DNA of 64,000 nt. Origin: Acetobacteraceae bacterium. Lineage in GTDB: Bacteria; Pseudomonadota; Alphaproteobacteria; Acetobacterales; Acetobacteraceae. The stretch is from NCBI GenBank assembly GCA_003164135.1, contig PLSD01000028.1, forward strand, positions 1-64,000, given 5' to 3'. Position numbers and translations under genes: made by a program. The notes under the pieces are model-generated. The model had not been told where the DNA came from. It saw only the letters and a program-made list of their open reading frames with translations, and ran no database searches. How positions within the stretch are numbered: the first letter of the stretch is position 1; the number at the start of each line of letters is the position of its first letter. Shown here in pieces: positions 12,876-21,017 of this stretch.

Positions 12876-13487
12876 TTATGGCACCTCGCAGGCGGCAAGA
12901 AGCATGCGCGCAAACGGGGTTGTGGTCGGTTCCTGGCCGGGATTTTGAAATGCACACCCCAATTCCACCAAAGTTTTGACGGATACCAACCACTCATCCT
13001 CCCCCAGGCCGATCTCGCTTCGCTTGTCCCTATGAAAGCTCTGCCGCGCATTCGGATGATTAGAATTGGCCGTCGAAGGAAGAGGTAAGCGATAAATATT
13101 GAGCACACTGACATCTACCGGCTCTAATTTTCTCACGACCTCCAGGTACTCGCGTCGCACCTTTCTGCCGCCATCAATCATCGAATTGGCCAGCAAAGCT
13201 GCCCAAAGGTCCTGAAGCTCCTGCCGGTCCTCCTGGCAGGCCGCATCCACCAAGGGGATCAAAATAGACGGTGACGGCTCGGTATGCCGCTCAGGGGGGA
13301 CCTTGTCCCTCAGCTCCTTCGCTTTTTCCGTAACGCGCCGCCAGTTCCTCTCAAATGCTGGGCCAAAATACTTCACCACAGCAGACTGTGCAGCTTTGGA
13401 CGCGCCGCGAATTGTCTGCACGGCTTCAATGAACGCAGCCAGCTCCTCTGCGTCCTTGGGGATCATATTTATCAGGTCGTTTGCCAT
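12876..13487 (-). CDS. Abi-alpha (DUF4393)-like protein, candidate abortive-infection gene
   Basis: A 203-aa protein. The central stretch SILIPLVDAACQEDRQELQDLWAALLANSMIDG matches the core of DUF4393/Abi-alpha proteins (helix, then E/D-rich ELQ-x-LWA-x-LLANA-x-D). It is preceded by a helical N-terminus with FGPAFERNWRRVTEKAKELRDK and followed by VRREYLEVVRKLEPVDVSVL, the usual place where the family continues. Members are linked to abortive phage infection by similarity to lactococcal Abi; the mechanism is not known to me. It starts at ATG 13487. It sits as the last gene before attR, a typical cargo position, and is transcribed inward. Confidence 0.72.
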   Translation of the reverse strand: MANDLINMIPKDAEELAAFIEAVQTIRGASKAAQSAVVKYFGPAFERNWRRVTEKAKELRDKVPPERHTEPSPSILIPLVDAACQEDRQELQDLWAALLANSMIDGGRKVRREYLEVVRKLEPVDVSVLNIYRLPLPSTANSNHPNARQSFHRDKRSEIGLGEDEWLVSVKTLVELGCAFQNPGQEPTTTPFARMLLAACEVP

Positions 13488-13687: not shown

Positions 13688-14326
13688 CTATGCGCCCGGC
13701 CTAACCGCCTCCGGCCCCGCAATTGCCATCGCGCGTTGATACGCCGGCCGCGCTTCAATCCGCTTCACATACGCCACCACGTTGGGCAGATGGTCGATCG
13801 CCGGCCCTCCGAACTTCGGCATCGTGGTCAGCGCAAACATGTTCTGCACATCCGCGGCGGTAAATTCCGGTCCGGCCAGATACTCCGACTCCCCCGTCCG
13901 CAGGTTCAAATGGTTGAAATACAACTTCACCCGGTCGGCCGAGGCTTTGGCGAACATCGCCCGCAGCGGGTCCGTCGAGTCCGGGTCACCCGCCATTTGC
14001 GCCATGACGGAGCCCATCAAGCTGTTGCTGAAGCTCAGCCAGTACAGATAATCGGCGTAATTGGGCGCATCCACCGCCACCCCCAGCCGCCCGCCCGCAT
14101 GCCGGTTCACAATATACTCGACAATCGCCAGCGACTCACAAAACACCTTGTCGCCATCACGGATGGTCGGCGCCGTCGCCACCGGATGCAGCGCCTTATA
14201 CTCCGGCGGCGCGAACATATTGGGCATACGGTCAAACCATTCCAGTTTGTAAGGCAGGCCAAGCTCCTCCATCAGCCAAACAATCCTGTCCGATTGCGAC
14301 ACGCCAAGGTGATAAATGGTAATCAT
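13688..14326 (-). CDS. Glutathione S-transferase family protein
   Basis: A 212-aa two-domain GST from ATG 14326 (MITIYHLGVSQSDRIVWLMEELG), preceded by GAGGGGAAG. The thioredoxin-fold N-terminal domain has the S-x-R active-site region (Ser10-Arg13 area), the cis-Pro segment ATAPTIRDGD and the ES motif (VFCESLAIVEYI) that binds glutathione. The helical C-terminal domain contains YLAGPEFTAADVQNMFAL, the GST N-capping box. It conjugates or reduces unknown electrophiles. The TAG stop lies in the loop of a CCGGGCGC/GCGCCCGG hairpin (13681-13699). It is the first chromosomal gene after the island. Confidence 0.92.
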   Translation of the reverse strand: MITIYHLGVSQSDRIVWLMEELGLPYKLEWFDRMPNMFAPPEYKALHPVATAPTIRDGDKVFCESLAIVEYIVNRHAGGRLGVAVDAPNYADYLYWLSFSNSLMGSVMAQMAGDPDSTDPLRAMFAKASADRVKLYFNHLNLRTGESEYLAGPEFTAADVQNMFALTTMPKFGGPAIDHLPNVVAYVKRIEARPAYQRAMAIAGPEAVRPGA

Positions 14327-14471
14327 ACAACTTCCCCTCAAATTTTATGGTTTCCGGCAGCCTAACCTCAACGCCACAAGCCAGCAATCACGACCGCCCA
14401 ATCGCCGCGCCATTGTAATTCCCGCCTTCCTTGGTATCTCTGTGGCTGAATACGAAACCTAAGGGAGCAAC

Positions 14472-15464
14472 ATGCTGAAAGCCTATGCTTGCGCCCCGGG
14501 CGGCCGGCTTACCTACCTCGACCTCCACACCCAGCCCGGCGCGGTGCCGCAAGCCCTCTGGTTCGACCTGGAAAACCCGCGACCGGAAGACTATGCCTTC
14601 GTCACCCGCGAGACCGGACTGGCGTTGCCCCAGCAGGAAGACATCCTGGAAATCGAGAACTCCTCGCGTCTCTCGGCTGACGGCGAGGTGCTGACCCTGA
14701 CCATGCCGCTCGTCACCCGTACGCCGGACGGCCTGCAATCCAGCGCCTGCGGCTTTGTTCTGGCGCCGGATCGCCTGGTCACCATCCGCTTTGCCACGAG
14801 TCTGGTTTTCGACAACTTTTCTACCCAGCCGCACGAGGCCGGCCCGCCAAATTCGGCGATTATTTTCACGGGCCTGCTGGAAGCCATCGTCGACCGCCAG
14901 GCCGACGCGCTGGAAAACCTGCGCCGCGAACTGGATGAACTCTCGCACCAGATCTTCCACCACCGCTTCAGCACCGCGCCGGAGGAGCGCGCGAACCGCC
15001 GGCGCAATGCCGAGGCCGAGCTACAGGCCACCCTGGTAATTCTCGGGCGCGGCTACGATGCCATCTCCTTCCTGCGGGACAGCCAGCTAGGTGTCGCCCG
15101 CATCGCCCCCTATGTTCTTGGCACGGCGGCTTGGCTGCCAAAACCCGTCAGCCAGCGCCTCAAATCGGTCGCTCAGGATGTCTCCTCGCTCAACGAATTC
15201 AGCACCCATCTCACCGACAAGGTGCAATTCCTGCTCGACGCCACGCTCGGCCTCATTAACATCGCCCAGAACAGCCTCATCAAGGTGCTCACCATCGTCT
15301 CCATCGTTGGTATTCCGCCCACGCTCATCGCGGGCATCTACGGCATGAATTTCCACAACATCCCCGAACTCTCCTGGAAGTATGGCTACGGCTACGCCTG
15401 GGCATTCATGATCCTCTCCGCGGTGCTGCCGCTGGCGTGGTTCCGCAAGAAAGGCTGGCTATGA
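14472..15464 (+). CDS. CorA-family divalent cation transporter
   Basis: A 330-aa inner-membrane protein starting at ATG 14472 after AGGGAG. The large N-terminal cytoplasmic domain ends in a long helix (LTDKVQFLLDATLGLINIAQNSLIKVLTIVSIV), followed by TM1 with the signature YGMNF and a short loop NIPEL in place of the common MPEL, then TM2 (YAWAFMILSAVLPLAWF) and a basic end. It imports Mg2+ or related ions as a pentamer. The stop overlaps the sufE start (ATGA). The pairing with sufE has no obvious functional reason. Confidence 0.93.
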   Translation: MLKAYACAPGGRLTYLDLHTQPGAVPQALWFDLENPRPEDYAFVTRETGLALPQQEDILEIENSSRLSADGEVLTLTMPLVTRTPDGLQSSACGFVLAPDRLVTIRFATSLVFDNFSTQPHEAGPPNSAIIFTGLLEAIVDRQADALENLRRELDELSHQIFHHRFSTAPEERANRRRNAEAELQATLVILGRGYDAISFLRDSQLGVARIAPYVLGTAAWLPKPVSQRLKSVAQDVSSLNEFSTHLTDKVQFLLDATLGLINIAQNSLIKVLTIVSIVGIPPTLIAGIYGMNFHNIPELSWKYGYGYAWAFMILSAVLPLAWFRKKGWL

Positions 15465-15892
15465 CTTCCTTCTACCAACCCGAGGACGCCAGCGCCGCGG
15501 AGGCGATTGCCGCCATCGCCGAGGACCTGGCGCTGTTCGATGATTGGATGGACCGCTACCAGTTCATCATCGAACTGGGCCGCAAACTGCCTCCCTACCC
15601 CGTGGAATGGCAGGACGAGGCACACCGCGTGAAAGGCTGCCAAAGCCAGGTCTGGCTGGCGGCAGAGCAAAGCGGCGACAAATTATATTTCACCGGCGCC
15701 TCGGACGCCGCCATCGTCTCCGGCCTGGTGGCGCTGGTATTACGCGTCTATTCCGGCCGCCCACAGGCTGAAATCCTCGCCACTCCCGCAAAGTTCCTGC
15801 ACGACCTCGGGCTAATCGGCGCGCTATCCACCAATCGCGGCAACGGTGTCGCCGCGATGGTGGAACGTATTCAGGCTATGGCGAAGGGCTGA
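15461..15892 (+). CDS. sufE: SufE-family sulfur acceptor
   Basis: A 143-aa SufE domain protein that takes persulfide sulfur from the cysteine desulfurase SufS for Fe-S cluster assembly. The active-site Cys is in HRVKGCQSQVWL, and LAIFDDWMDRYQFIIELG-type N-terminal helices and RGNGVAAMVERIQ at the end are typical. The ATG at 15461 overlaps the stop of the CorA gene, and the first in-frame alternative lies inside that gene. No other suf genes are in the window. Confidence 0.94.
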   Translation: MTSFYQPEDASAAEAIAAIAEDLALFDDWMDRYQFIIELGRKLPPYPVEWQDEAHRVKGCQSQVWLAAEQSGDKLYFTGASDAAIVSGLVALVLRVYSGRPQAEILATPAKFLHDLGLIGALSTNRGNGVAAMVERIQAMAKG

Positions 15893-15929
15893 ATCATTAC
15901 CCGAAGCGCCTTCTTTCGTCAGGTCACCT

Positions 15930-16295
15930 TTATTGCAGTAACGCGGTCGCGGCCCTGGCCGCGCGGCTGGCAACAACGAACAGCAGACCCAGCTTGATCG
16001 GCTTGTTGGCGATGATGCAGAGTACGGCAGCGTTGCTGGCATGAATGATCAGCACATAGCCTTGTGCGCCGCTGATCAAAACCTGCTCCAGACTGCCAAG
16101 CGAAAGCTCGGCGGCAGTGCGGTCGCCCAATGAGAGCATGGCGGCAACCATGGCACTGATGCGATCATCGTCCATGCCGGCAGTGAGAGCGGAGGAAATA
16201 ACAAGACCATCCGTCGAAATCAGCGCTGATGCTTCTATATCCGCGGAACTACCATTCAGGTCTGTCAAAATGGTTTGTATCTTATCTTCACCCAT
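15930..16295 (-). CDS. Roadblock/LC7 domain protein
   Basis: A 121-aa single-domain protein (MGEDKIQTILTDLNGSSADIEASALISTDGLVISSAL) with the alternating strand pattern of Roadblock/LC7 (MglB-like) proteins, which dimerise and act on small Ras-like GTPases of the MglA type. A GGCAG-like site is weak but GGAGG occurs just before the ATG. It is a clear paralogue of the N-terminal domain of the divergently placed gene at 16786, sharing IxAxxLDxNxxSADIxASALISTDGxVIxSALxxGMDxDRxSAxVAAxLSLGxRT. No GTPase gene is nearby. Confidence 0.9.
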   Translation of the reverse strand: MGEDKIQTILTDLNGSSADIEASALISTDGLVISSALTAGMDDDRISAMVAAMLSLGDRTAAELSLGSLEQVLISGAQGYVLIIHASNAAVLCIIANKPIKLGLLFVVASRAARAATALLQ

Positions 16296-16785
16296 GTGTT
16301 CCTCCAGAAGGATTGGCCGCGCCGCTCAGGCTAAAAGCTTTCTAATTTAGTGCAATACGAATACCTAACGATATTTCCCTAAGCGGACACATCAGTTTTG
16401 CGTGATCAGCCTTGCGCAGTTCCGCGGAACGCATTTTAATCGCTTCAGCGCCTGAAATAGAAACCAAGTTATAGGTCTATTCAATATATTATAATACATA
16501 CCTTACCTTGCATATAAGGATAGACTTTGTGCTGAAACCGTATCAAGCCTACGCAATTGCGCGGCACAAGCCATTCGCTGCGCAGACCAGGCGGCCAGGG
16601 CCGCGCTTTCCCGGATTGTTCCGCAATAAGACACCGCGTGAGATTTTTCCGTGGATCGCAACGAAAGACACTGAAGCTACGGTCAACACAATGTTGCTAT
16701 TTCGCATGAAATCGTGGTGCACGGGCTATCTGTATGCCAAGTTTTGGCTATTCTTGATAACACAGCGACCCTGCTGGAGGTGCAC
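16296..16785. other. Divergent intergenic region of the two Roadblock genes
   Basis: There are 490 bases between divergent genes. An AT-rich block around 16478-16500 contains TATAAT and could serve one or both directions. A 93-codon frame ending at 16789 overlaps the next start and has no recognisable feature. I see no other element. Confidence 0.4.
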
Positions 16786-18027
16786 ATGAACGAAGATGAA
16801 ATTAAGGCCGTCTTGTCGGTCCTGAACAGCCATTCAGCCGATATCCAGGCATCTGCCCTCATATCCACGGATGGCTTCGTTATTGCCTCGGCCCTGGCTG
16901 AGGGCATGGATGAAGATCGCGTCAGCGCACTGGTCGCCGCCACCCTGTCCCTGGGTGAGCGCACTGCGTTGGAGCTCTCGCGGGGCCATCTGGAGCAGGT
17001 CATGATCGGCGGCAAGCAGGGTCTTGTGCTGGTCATCCGTGCCGGCGATGACGCCGTGCTCTGCACCATCGCCAATAAATCGGTCAAACTGGGTTCGCTG
17101 TTCCAGGATGCCAGTATCGCAGCGAAGGCTGTCTTGGCTTACCAGAACGAATTCAACGACATTCTGGAAGCCAACCAAGCGGCGAAAGCCATTCCCGGAC
17201 CCAAGCCTGAGCCCGCATTAGCTCCCCCCCCCAAGTCCGAGCCAGTGGCTCAGTATATCCCAGAACCCGAGCCTGAACCCGTGGCGGAGCCGGTTCCGGC
17301 CCCGCTCCCGGAACCCATCACCCAGCACGCTCCTATCCCCGCCGCCCCGGCAGAGCCAACCCCGCTCCCCGCACCCAGCTTTCAGTCCGCTGACGAGTTT
17401 GACCTATCGGACGAACCTGTTCTGATCCTTGATTCAACCTATGCACTCACCCCCGCGCCGCCGGCACCGCCAGCGGAGACCAGCCCGCAGAAAAACCACG
17501 CCCAGGACACAACCCTGCACGAACTCTGCCTGGATGTCGGCTTTACCTCCGAAGACCAGGGCATCATCAAGTCGCTCCAACCCCTGCTTCGCCCACTCCT
17601 ACCTGGGCTGACCGAGCGTTTCTACAAGGTGCTCCTGGCCGACCCGCAAATGGCCCCCTTCGTGCAAAATCAGCTAGGCACGCTCAAGCCCGCTCACAGC
17701 GCATGGCTGGATAACTTGTTCGAGGGTGATTACGGTCCGGATTTCGTGCGCCGCCAGCAGGAAATCGGCGAAGCCCACGCGCGGGCCAACGTCCCGCCGA
17801 TCTTTTTTGCTGCGAGCATGGCCTTCCTGCGCGCGGCATTCCCGCCTTTGCTGACCGCCAATATAAAAGATCCTCGTGAACAGGGCGCCGCCACCGGCTC
17901 GCTGCTGCGGCTGCTGGACTTATGCCAGTACCTCATCGACCCGAAATATTATCAGGCCCTCATTCGGCTTGGCCAAGTGCAGAAAAAGAACACCTCTGCC
18001 GCATCTAATCGCGAACTTTCCTACTAA
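16786..18027 (+). CDS. Roadblock/LC7 domain fused to a globin-coupled-sensor (protoglobin-like) domain
   Basis: A 413-aa protein from ATG 16786, five bases after GGAGG. Residues 1-120 are a Roadblock/LC7 domain paralogous to the gene at 15930. Residues 130-240 form a linker rich in Pro, Glu and Ala (PEPEPVAEPVPAPLPEP). Residues about 243-400 are an all-helical globin sensor domain: LTERFYKVLLADPQMAPFV, LKPAHSAWLDNLFEGDYGPDFVRRQQEIGEAHARANVPPIFF and a final DPKYYQALIRL helix. The spacing and the IGxAHxxxxVPP motif, with proximal-His candidate His331, match heme globins of globin-coupled sensors. It may let oxygen or another gas control a Roadblock/GTPase switch, which is inference. The fusion is unusual. 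Confidence 0.85.
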   Translation: MNEDEIKAVLSVLNSHSADIQASALISTDGFVIASALAEGMDEDRVSALVAATLSLGERTALELSRGHLEQVMIGGKQGLVLVIRAGDDAVLCTIANKSVKLGSLFQDASIAAKAVLAYQNEFNDILEANQAAKAIPGPKPEPALAPPPKSEPVAQYIPEPEPEPVAEPVPAPLPEPITQHAPIPAAPAEPTPLPAPSFQSADEFDLSDEPVLILDSTYALTPAPPAPPAETSPQKNHAQDTTLHELCLDVGFTSEDQGIIKSLQPLLRPLLPGLTERFYKVLLADPQMAPFVQNQLGTLKPAHSAWLDNLFEGDYGPDFVRRQQEIGEAHARANVPPIFFAASMAFLRAAFPPLLTANIKDPREQGAATGSLLRLLDLCQYLIDPKYYQALIRLGQVQKKNTSAASNRELSY

Positions 18028-18041
18028 GTGAAGGCTTAACC

Positions 18042-18068
18042 GGGCTGAATCATTATCCGATTCAGCCC
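18042..18068. terminator. Bidirectional terminator between the globin gene and parC
   Basis: GGGCTGAATC (18042-18051) pairs perfectly with GATTCAGCCC (18059-18068) around a seven-base loop. It lies between convergent genes and includes the parC stop codon. Confidence 0.6.
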
Positions 18069-20290
18069 GCCTCGCTGCCGAACTTGCCCGATTTTGGGAA
18101 CCCGTTCGGCGGCATGCGGCCAACTTGCGCGCGCACCCCCAGCCATTCAGTCAGCTTCGGCTCGGTCCGGGTCTTATCGCCCAGCCGCCACGTCAGCCCC
18201 TCGGCCAACGCAAACACCTTCACGTCGCTCAACGAGCCATCTTTGTACTTCTGCAAAATTACCCCTGACCCCTTCGGCATCTCGGGCACCTCTACCAGCG
18301 GGAACACCAGCAGCTTGCGGTTGCTGCCAATCACCGCGACATGGTCGCCCTTCACCGGCACGCACGCAGCCCATTCCTCGCCCGGCCGCAGCGTCAAAAT
18401 CGTCTTGCCCGCCCGCCGCTCGGAGGTCAGCTCCACCCCCGGCAGAATAAAGCCGCGCCCGGAGGACGACGCCACCAAGTACTTCGCCGTCAAATCCGGC
18501 AGGAACAGCCGCAGCACGCCATCCTCATTGGCGAGGTCAATCAGCAACCGTATCGCCTGCCCATCCCCCCGTCCGCGCGGAATATCCGAGGCTTTCAGCG
18601 TATAAACCCGCCCATTGGTCGCCAGCAGCGCGATGCGGTCGGTGGACTCACACCGCAGCAGGCAATCCAGCCGGTCGCCTTCCTTGAACTTCAGCTCCGC
18701 ATCGTCGGCCAAATGTCCCTTTTGCGCCCGTATCCAGCCCTTTTGCGACATAATTACCGTAATCGCCTCGCGCTCCACCAGTGCCTCGGCGACAATCTCC
18801 ACCACCGGCGCCGCGGCGCTGATCTTCGTCCGCCGCGCGCCCAGAGGTCCGGCACCAAATTTCTCCCGCACCTCGCCAATTTCGGCGGTAATCTTCTCCC
18901 AGCGCTTGCCCACGTCGCCCAGCAGCGCCTGCAACCCCTTCTGCTCGGCACTCAGCTTCTTATGCTCGGTGCGGATCTCCTGCTCCTCCAGCCGGCGCAA
19001 ACTGCGCAGCCGCATGTTCAAAATCGCCTCGGCCTGCGTATCGGTCAGGCTGAAAGTCGTCATCAGCACCGGCTTGGGCTGGTCCTCGGTACGGATAATC
19101 CGGATCACCTCGTCAATGTTCAAATAAACAATCAGATACCCGTCCAGAATCTCCAACCGGCGCGCAATCGCCTCCAGCCGGTGGTTGGAGCGGCGGACCA
19201 GCACCTCATGCCGGTGGTCCAGCCAGCAACGCAGCAGCGCCTTCAACCCCATCACGCGCGGCGTCCGCCCGCCGTCCAGCACGTTCATGTTCAGCGCAAA
19301 CCGGTTTTCCAGCGTCGTCGCGCGGAACAGCGAGGCCATCAGCATTTCCGGGTCCACCGTGCGCGCCTTCGGCTCCAGCACCAGGCGGATGGTCTCGGCA
19401 CTTTCATCGCGAATATCGCCCAGCAGCGGGAGCTTTTTCTCCTGCAACAGCAGCGCCACCTGCTCGATCAACCGCGACTTCTGCACCTGATACGGAATCT
19501 CCGTCACCACGATCACCCAGGTGCCGTTCTTCTGCGCCTCCTTCACCCAGCGCGCCCGCGTGCGCAGCGAACCGCGCCCGGTCTCATACGCCGCCAGCAG
19601 TGTCGCCTCGTCCTCCACCAGCTCGCCGCCGGTGGGAAAATCCGGTCCACGCAAATGCCGCATCAACTCCTGCGTCGTCGCTTCAGGGTGCTGCACCAGA
19701 TGAATCGCCGCGGCACACACTTCCCCGGCATTATGCGGCGGAATGGAGGTCGCCATGCCCACCGCGATCCCCGCCGCGCCATTGGCCAGCAGGTTGGGGA
19801 ACGCCCCCGGCAGCACCACCGGCTCGCTCTCCTCGCCGTCATAGGTCGGGCGGAAATCCACCGCGTTCTCATCAATCCCGCGCAGCAAAAACTCGGCAAC
19901 CTCGGTCAGCCGCGATTCCGTGTAGCGCATCGCCGCCGCGTTATCGCCGTCGATATTACCGAAATTCCCCTGCCCCTCGATCAGCGGAAACCGCGAGGAA
20001 AACTCCTGCGCCAGCCGCACCAGCGCCTCGTAAATCGAGCTATCGCCATGCGGGTGAAACTTACCCATCACATCACCCACCACACGGGCGCATTTTTTAA
20101 AGCCTGAGCGCGGGTCCAGCTTGAGCTGGTGCATGGCGTAGATCAGCCGGCGATGCACCGGCTTCAGCCCATCGCGCGCATCGGGCAGCGAGCGCGACAT
20201 AATGGTGGACAGCGCATAAGCCAGATACCGCTCCGAGAGCGCACTGCTCAGCGGCGCGTCTTCAATATGGCCCGATACCTCATCCAACAT
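18062..20290 (-). CDS. parC: DNA topoisomerase IV subunit A
   Basis: A 742-aa type II topoisomerase A subunit from ATG 20290 ([31 protein letters not shown]); GTG 20299 is an alternative. The catalytic Tyr123 lies in [11 protein letters not shown]. The quinolone region [14 protein letters not shown] keeps Ser84 and Glu88, the susceptible state. ParC rather than GyrA is indicated by the short C-terminal domain (six-bladed beta-pinwheel region only partly conserved, no GyrA box seen) and by total length. It decatenates chromosomes with ParE, which is not in the window. It overlaps the recO end by 11 bases and is last in a six-gene operon. Confidence 0.95.
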
Positions 20291-21017
20291 TCTTCTCACC
20301 CTCGGCTAGTCTATCAGCGATCAGGTCATAGAGACGCTCCCGCGCCGTTGGAAGAGGGCGATGGCGCGCCCCGAACACGTCGCGGGCAAAGAAGTGGCTG
20401 GTAATGCGCAATCCGGCCAGGCAATCCGCCAAACCCGGCTCGCTGTCATCAACCAGGAATTCCGGCAGCGGGAACAACCTATCCACCCATTCCCCAGCCT
20501 GGCTCAGCGTCACCGCCCGCCCGGTACGCGGCGAGACATACGCCAGCCGGTCATTCCCGCCCGCCTGCGTGGCAAAATCCAGCCCAAACCCAAGTTCCCG
20601 CAGCAGCACAATTTCCCAGCGCACTAGCTCAGGCAACGGCACGCCGGGAATATCGATCCCCGCCAGCAGCCGCGCGAGCCCCGCGAACACCGCAGGACAT
20701 GGCTCCCGCTCCGGCAACGCCCCCGCCGCCAGCGCGCAGGCGGCATTCAGCACCGCCAAAGCCTCCCGCTCCTGCATCGCCAGCGCCGCCGCCGGGTGCA
20801 CCAGCTCCCCGCTCAAAATCCCCAACTGCTCCGCCAGCCGCGCCACCCAGCGCGCCGAAACCAAATTCCCCGGCTGCCAAATCCCCGCAAGCCGGCGCGA
20901 TGCCCCGCCCTTCACCAGCCCGCGCCATGCCCCCTGCGCGGTCAGCACCGTTACCAGCGCATCGCCCTCGCCATAGCCGGTGGTCTCCAGCACAATCGCC
21001 GGCTCCTGCCATTCCAT
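20280..21017 (-). CDS. recO: DNA repair protein RecO
   Basis: A 245-aa recombination mediator that works with RecF and RecR to load RecA. The N-terminal OB fold begins [36 protein letters not shown], with a typical GxGxA/K pattern. The helical C-terminal part follows. The four-Cys zinc motif of some RecO proteins is absent: only isolated cysteines are seen. It starts at ATG 21017, three bases after the M20 gene ends, and overlaps parC. Confidence 0.92.

Follow-up and report, generated by a model that had tools for sequence, protein, structure and literature searches.

We identified a gene for a 413-residue protein in which an N-terminal Roadblock/LC7 domain is joined to a C-terminal protoglobin domain. 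The gene lies at 16786..18027 on the forward strand of the window, by which we mean the whole 64,000-nucleotide stretch of Acetobacteraceae DNA analysed here, from an organism whose genus is taken to be Acidocella. It was called from an open frame and two Pfam domains above cut-off. We consider it fairly likely, on sequence grounds, that the protein is a soluble dimeric heme-based sensor of O2 or redox state that would signal through a Roadblock dimer.

Domains and heme pocket of the fusion protein

Pfam places Roadblock/LC7 at residues 18-96 (E 6.5e-14) and protoglobin at residues 243-388 (E 1.9e-24) of the fusion protein, and PF11563 was the sole globin family that it matched. A chance domain match as the source of the fusion call was rejected, since both scores are well above the curated Pfam cut-offs. 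Structure prediction and fold comparison agree with both assignments: the Roadblock domain has the MglB fold, and the best structural matches of the globin are 2w31 and 1or4. An earlier note, made from the letters alone, had read a Roadblock/LC7 domain, a Pro/Glu-rich linker and a globin sensor domain in one protein, and the profile search and structure prediction that it suggested bear this out. We delimit the Roadblock domain as residues 1-119 (16786..17142, forward strand, as for all features of this gene), the linker as residues 120-240 (17143..17505, from pLDDT and orthologue length variation) and the protoglobin domain as residues 241-392 (17506..17961).

The linker is modelled as a helix up to residue 134 and then mostly with pLDDT <50, and its length differs in an alignment of six orthologous sequences. 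A short motif within it, at residues 210-221 (17413..17448), is invariant in the six orthologues though the surrounding Pro/Glu-rich sequence varies, with E210, P211, L213, L215, D216, T218 and Y219 identical in 6/6. It is possible that this motif could serve as a docking peptide or docking site.

Three residues of the globin domain align with heme-pocket positions of known sensors. We take F8 and B10 to be the labels of the HemAT positions used in the alignment, and residue numbers of GsGCS and HemAT were counted off the alignments. His331 (codon 17776..17778), already singled out by the earlier note, aligns with GsGCS His93 and with the proximal His123 of HemAT, and holds its place as candidate proximal ligand HisF8. 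Tyr280 (17623..17625), at B10, aligns with the FY motif of HemAT and pairs with its Tyr70, while His304 (17695..17697) aligns with GsGCS His66 and is the candidate distal ligand HisE11. All three are unchanged in 6/6 orthologues. One paper names His66(E11) of GsGCS as a heme ligand (PMC4476040). His was found at E11 in 30/31 Roadblock-associated globins (19 fused, seven stand-alone from Acidocella and five from the f188 lineage), with Tyr in the remaining one, against 1/17 other globins in the same alignment (13 from fetched loci and four from solved structures), the one being GsGCS itself; this enrichment has a Fisher p of 1.2e-10 when kinship is ignored. Two long-branch sequences, L024 and L050, had been removed from the globin set beforehand; L050, one of the fused paralogues, carries the E11 His together with Phe in the F8 position. 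The globin domain of the window protein probably binds heme, as far as its sequence can tell.

In the mechanism that we favour, the protoglobin domain would hold heme through His331 (F8), with His304 (E11) probably filling the sixth coordination site from within. His304 would be displaced by O2 or a different diatomic ligand, or on a change of redox state, and the movement would be relayed via the globin dimer and linker to the paired Roadblock domains at the N-terminal end, which would then win or lose a partner at their surface. The Roadblock domain would work together with the stand-alone Roadblock encoded divergently from it.

Not all members of the family keep the proximal ligand. Among the 20 fused ORFs covering the F8 position, one of which is truncated by a contig end behind it, the F8 His is missing in six: it is Lys in four (G006, G010, G018 and G032), Tyr in a paralogue of G017 and Phe in one of G035. 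Some fused globins may therefore not bind heme, and these replacements are a point against the sensor reading. They speak instead for a globin half that lacks heme and has a structural role or senses some other signal, as described for RsbR of Bacillus subtilis, within a family that is losing heme. RsbR, a globin-STAS protein of the stressosome, resembles the six fused paralogues in having a globin able to lose its heme ligand, but its output is STAS, and in the window protein the ligand residues are still present. F8, B10 and E11 are likewise retained in the five orthologues of the window protein and in all seven stand-alone Acidocella globins, and each of the four Lys-bearing fusions has next to it a Roadblock gene as well as a globin gene whose F8 His is intact. 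We judge a heme-free role improbable.

Locus, distribution and origin

A stand-alone Roadblock paralogue of 121 residues (Robl_LC7, E 1.6e-13) is encoded divergently from the fusion gene at 15930..16295 on the reverse strand, as the earlier note had seen, and putative heterodimers of the two products are plausible. The 490-bp intergenic region between them (16296..16785; alignment of six species) holds a block conserved in five relatives, which spans about 16331-16379 and lies upstream of the stand-alone Roadblock gene. A sigma-54 reading of this block was dropped because its GG is lost in two relatives, as judged by eye. Sigma-70-like sites numbered four against 1.2 expected, none of them convincing, and an Rfam search of 14000-20500 gave no match.

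The module sits between sufE and a convergent gene of 745 aa, read as ParC/GyrA-like, and judging from ORF starts it does so likewise in G009, G016 and G023. Pfam recognised sufE and corA among the window neighbours. No output partner of the fusion was found among these two and the 745-aa gene, which also counts against the sensor reading. In G009, G011 and G016 a stand-alone globin gene comes after the divergent Roadblock gene; there is no such globin in the window, G002 or G023. A 19-bp direct repeat (15886-15904 and 18042-18060, 18/19 identical) flanks the whole module; at <=3 mismatches these are its only two matches in the window (0.00 expected), and none of the fetched loci from other genomes has an exact match. 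By eye, the second copy makes up one half of a hairpin of 11 bp that lies between convergent genes. Near the module, 12876-13487 on the reverse strand encodes a 203-aa candidate defence protein (Abi_alpha, E 6.2e-16; PADLOC PDC-S47, E 2.8e-10). A conventional globin-coupled receptor with Protoglobin and MCPsignal domains is encoded on the same contig (G000 C31, about 140.5 kb; L101:4451-5971).

Orthologues of the fusion with 63-68% identity are present in G002, G009, G011, G016 and G023. With an alignment as the query, eight related loci were found, six of them from Acidocella (including A. aquatica NBRC 112502, A. aromatica DSM 27026 and Acidocella sp. KAb 2-4) and two from entries named "Proteobacteria bacterium", while the window protein (P0001) as a single query found no relative. 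Counting any ORF with both domains, a survey of the architecture, also suggested by the earlier note, found the fusion in 17/38 genomes of the genus. Besides the window genome these are 15 others and G030, in which the contig end truncates the gene. A plasmid search with P0001 returned 10 records, each matching one domain and none a fusion.

Robl_LC7 was found in 3/150 sampled Acetobacteraceae, all belonging to Acidocella, in 1/385 sampled Alphaproteobacteria, namely the window genome, and in 55/398 sampled Pseudomonadota. Because of this sparse distribution, we suggest that the Roadblock was probably gained by transfer and then multiplied within the genus. In the Roadblock tree, built from 76 distinct rows out of 96 matches, 38 rows from elsewhere split off from the Acidocella rows with support 95/96. 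In L053, a stand-alone Acidocella Roadblock gene is followed by genes for an SCP2-family and a phosphonate-binding-like protein, and ORFs in L052 and L054 begin similarly; in L109 (G839) the Roadblock is followed by PAS and a phosphonate-binding-like protein. Such neighbours offer a hint as to the source of the Acidocella Roadblock. A Roadblock-like stretch (35-178, 54% identity over 48 aa) also stands at the start of 3.9-kb ssRNA phage records, NC_074098.1 and BK014183.1, perhaps through chimeric assembly.

The Roadblock-associated globins of Acidocella and f188 form one clade (support 95/89), apart from the MCP-type globins of Acidocella and four solved sensors, in a tree of 48 rows with long branches. 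On account of these separate clades we rejected the idea that the fused globin arose from the MCP-type globin of Acidocella itself. A first globin tree, built without the solved sensors, had placed the MCP-length long-branch row L024, later dropped, inside the Acidocella group. The Roadblocks of f188 and Acidocella are not sisters in the Roadblock tree, so the trees do not establish that f188 donated the two genes as one unit.

Globin-Roadblock pairing in f188 and the GTPase question

In f188, another family, globin and Roadblock are encoded by separate genes. A search with one f188 globin found six close copies in 5/74 genomes, a scarcity that is a further point against the sensor reading; in three more genomes the query matches nothing but frames of 516-530 aa. 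A Roadblock gene adjoins five of the six close copies (two in G586 and one each in G594, G627 and G656, thus 4/5 genomes), and the copy in G660 has none within 1.5 kb on either side. The five copies that were scanned match Protoglobin in Pfam. Conversely, the globin is missing from 8/12 widely read f188 Roadblock loci. ODP is a di-iron O2-binding domain, and in G627 a 249-aa protein preceding the Roadblock matches it (PF19583); ORFs with the same start precede the Roadblock in G586, G656 and G594, as seen by eye. An MglA-type GTPase belongs to the same cluster as globin and Roadblock in G586, G627 and G656 and was not seen across the 16 kb read in G594. The clusters L113, L117, L119 and L102 combine Roadblock, protoglobin, an ODP-type protein (Pfam-tested in L117) and small Roadblock-like genes; the first three include the GTPase, and Roadblock and globin alternate in tandem in L113. 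A plasmid search with the f188 globin and its 209-aa neighbour found no match. This Roadblock/ODP/globin/GTPase cluster may be an O2-sensing MglAB system.

The repeated pairing of globin and Roadblock supports a working relation between the two, though not its output. It also bears on the idea of a globin that serves to detoxify or store a ligand such as NO or O2, with a Roadblock that just anchors or dimerises it. Single-domain globins of the same clade in Acidocella and f188 would suit such a role, but pairing of this kind points to signalling; moreover, Pfam finds no reductase domain in the fusion protein, and we recognised none in the neighbouring genes that were examined. We consider detoxification or storage very unlikely.

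The earlier note had pointed to control of a Ras-like GTPase as the usual work of a Roadblock. If the fusion controlled an MglA-type GTPase, its heme state would set the GAP activity of the Roadblock. The window protein resembles MglB, the Roadblock/LC7 GAP of MglA, in the sequence and fold of its Roadblock, and the f188 clusters lend this idea indirect support. It differs from MglB in being fused to a globin and in that no MglA-type GTPase was detected elsewhere in its genome with PF00025, PF03029 or a Deinococcus MglA-like query (a protein annotated as ATP/GTP-binding that adjoins a Roadblock gene). The assembly comprises 137 contigs with 5.43% contamination, so absence of the GTPase is not proven. 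PF00025 gave 30 matches in the genus, all within frames of 688-1009 aa that are taken to be IF-2-like, and is a weak test, having failed to pick up the small GTPases encoded in G007, G017 and G021. PF03029 and the Deinococcus query found a small GTPase in these three of the 38 genomes only. All three carry fusions and encode the GTPase elsewhere, which favours the idea, but neither search detected one in the other 14/17 fusion-bearing genomes, and the GTPase of G007 adjoins an ORF of 541 aa whose C-terminus matches Roadblock weakly, below the cut-off. GTPase control by the fusion thus appears unlikely to us. As the searches revealed no such GTPase in the window genome, we regard its Roadblocks as apparent orphans, and the Roadblock of the proposed sensor would best be read as a ligand-controlled dimerisation or adaptor module, derived from an imported MglB-type protein.

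A more elaborate scheme may be put forward tentatively, as a possibility that we hold rather doubtful. Here heme-competent and heme-ligand-less Roadblock-globins and stand-alone Roadblocks would form mixed dimers that report O2 or redox state by their make-up or shape. This would be a GTPase-free, heme-controlled dimer switch, its Roadblock an imported MglB-type protein, related to a putative O2-sensing Roadblock/ODP/globin/MglA system of separate genes in f188.

Relation to known proteins and significance

Known globin-coupled sensors have an N-terminal globin followed by an MCP, GGDEF or kinase output. The window protein shares with HemAT, AfGcHK, DosC and GsGCS a protoglobin-family domain with HisF8 and TyrB10, but its output is a Roadblock, placed N-terminal of the globin, and no transmitter follows an N-terminal globin.

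A closer precedent is HGbRL of Methylacidiphilum infernorum, a heme globin fused to Roadblock/LC7 that was published in 2015 (PMC4476040). Because HGbRL already joins the two domains, this kind of protein is known, and the "new heme-based switch class" of the earlier note was too strong a claim. The paper calls HGbRL unique to Methylacidiphilum (PMC4476040). Both proteins carry globin and Roadblock in one chain, and a hexacoordinated heme form is known for HGbRL and predicted for the window protein. In HGbRL, however, the globin is N-terminal and the Roadblock C-terminal, the reverse of the order seen here (18-96, then 243-388). As described there, HGbRL has 274 residues, swapped sites, Lys(E10)-His and a globin related to HGbI, whereas the window globin matches the protoglobin family and has a HisE11 candidate, a contrast drawn with the description of HGbRL rather than with its sequence. 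The Acidocella form is different in being Roadblock-first and of protoglobin lineage, in its genus-wide radiation with heme-ligand-less paralogues, in HisE11 and in the existence of a second family with globin beside Roadblock. No paper on a Roadblock-first, protoglobin-type fusion was found in the open-licence literature.

According to another source, 328 MglB homologues without a coupled GTPase have been counted, and none of these orphans had been characterised as of 2014 (PMC4316618). One orphan Roadblock kind here carries a testable predicted ligand-binding domain, so its role could be followed by heme spectrum and binding assay. The two domains are combined here in an order, and with an apparent globin lineage, other than those of HGbRL, and the f188 cluster of Roadblock, ODP, globin and GTPase may represent a wider O2-sensing system. 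The arrangement is uncommon, and it may let the cell sense oxygen or redox state via a Roadblock dimer.
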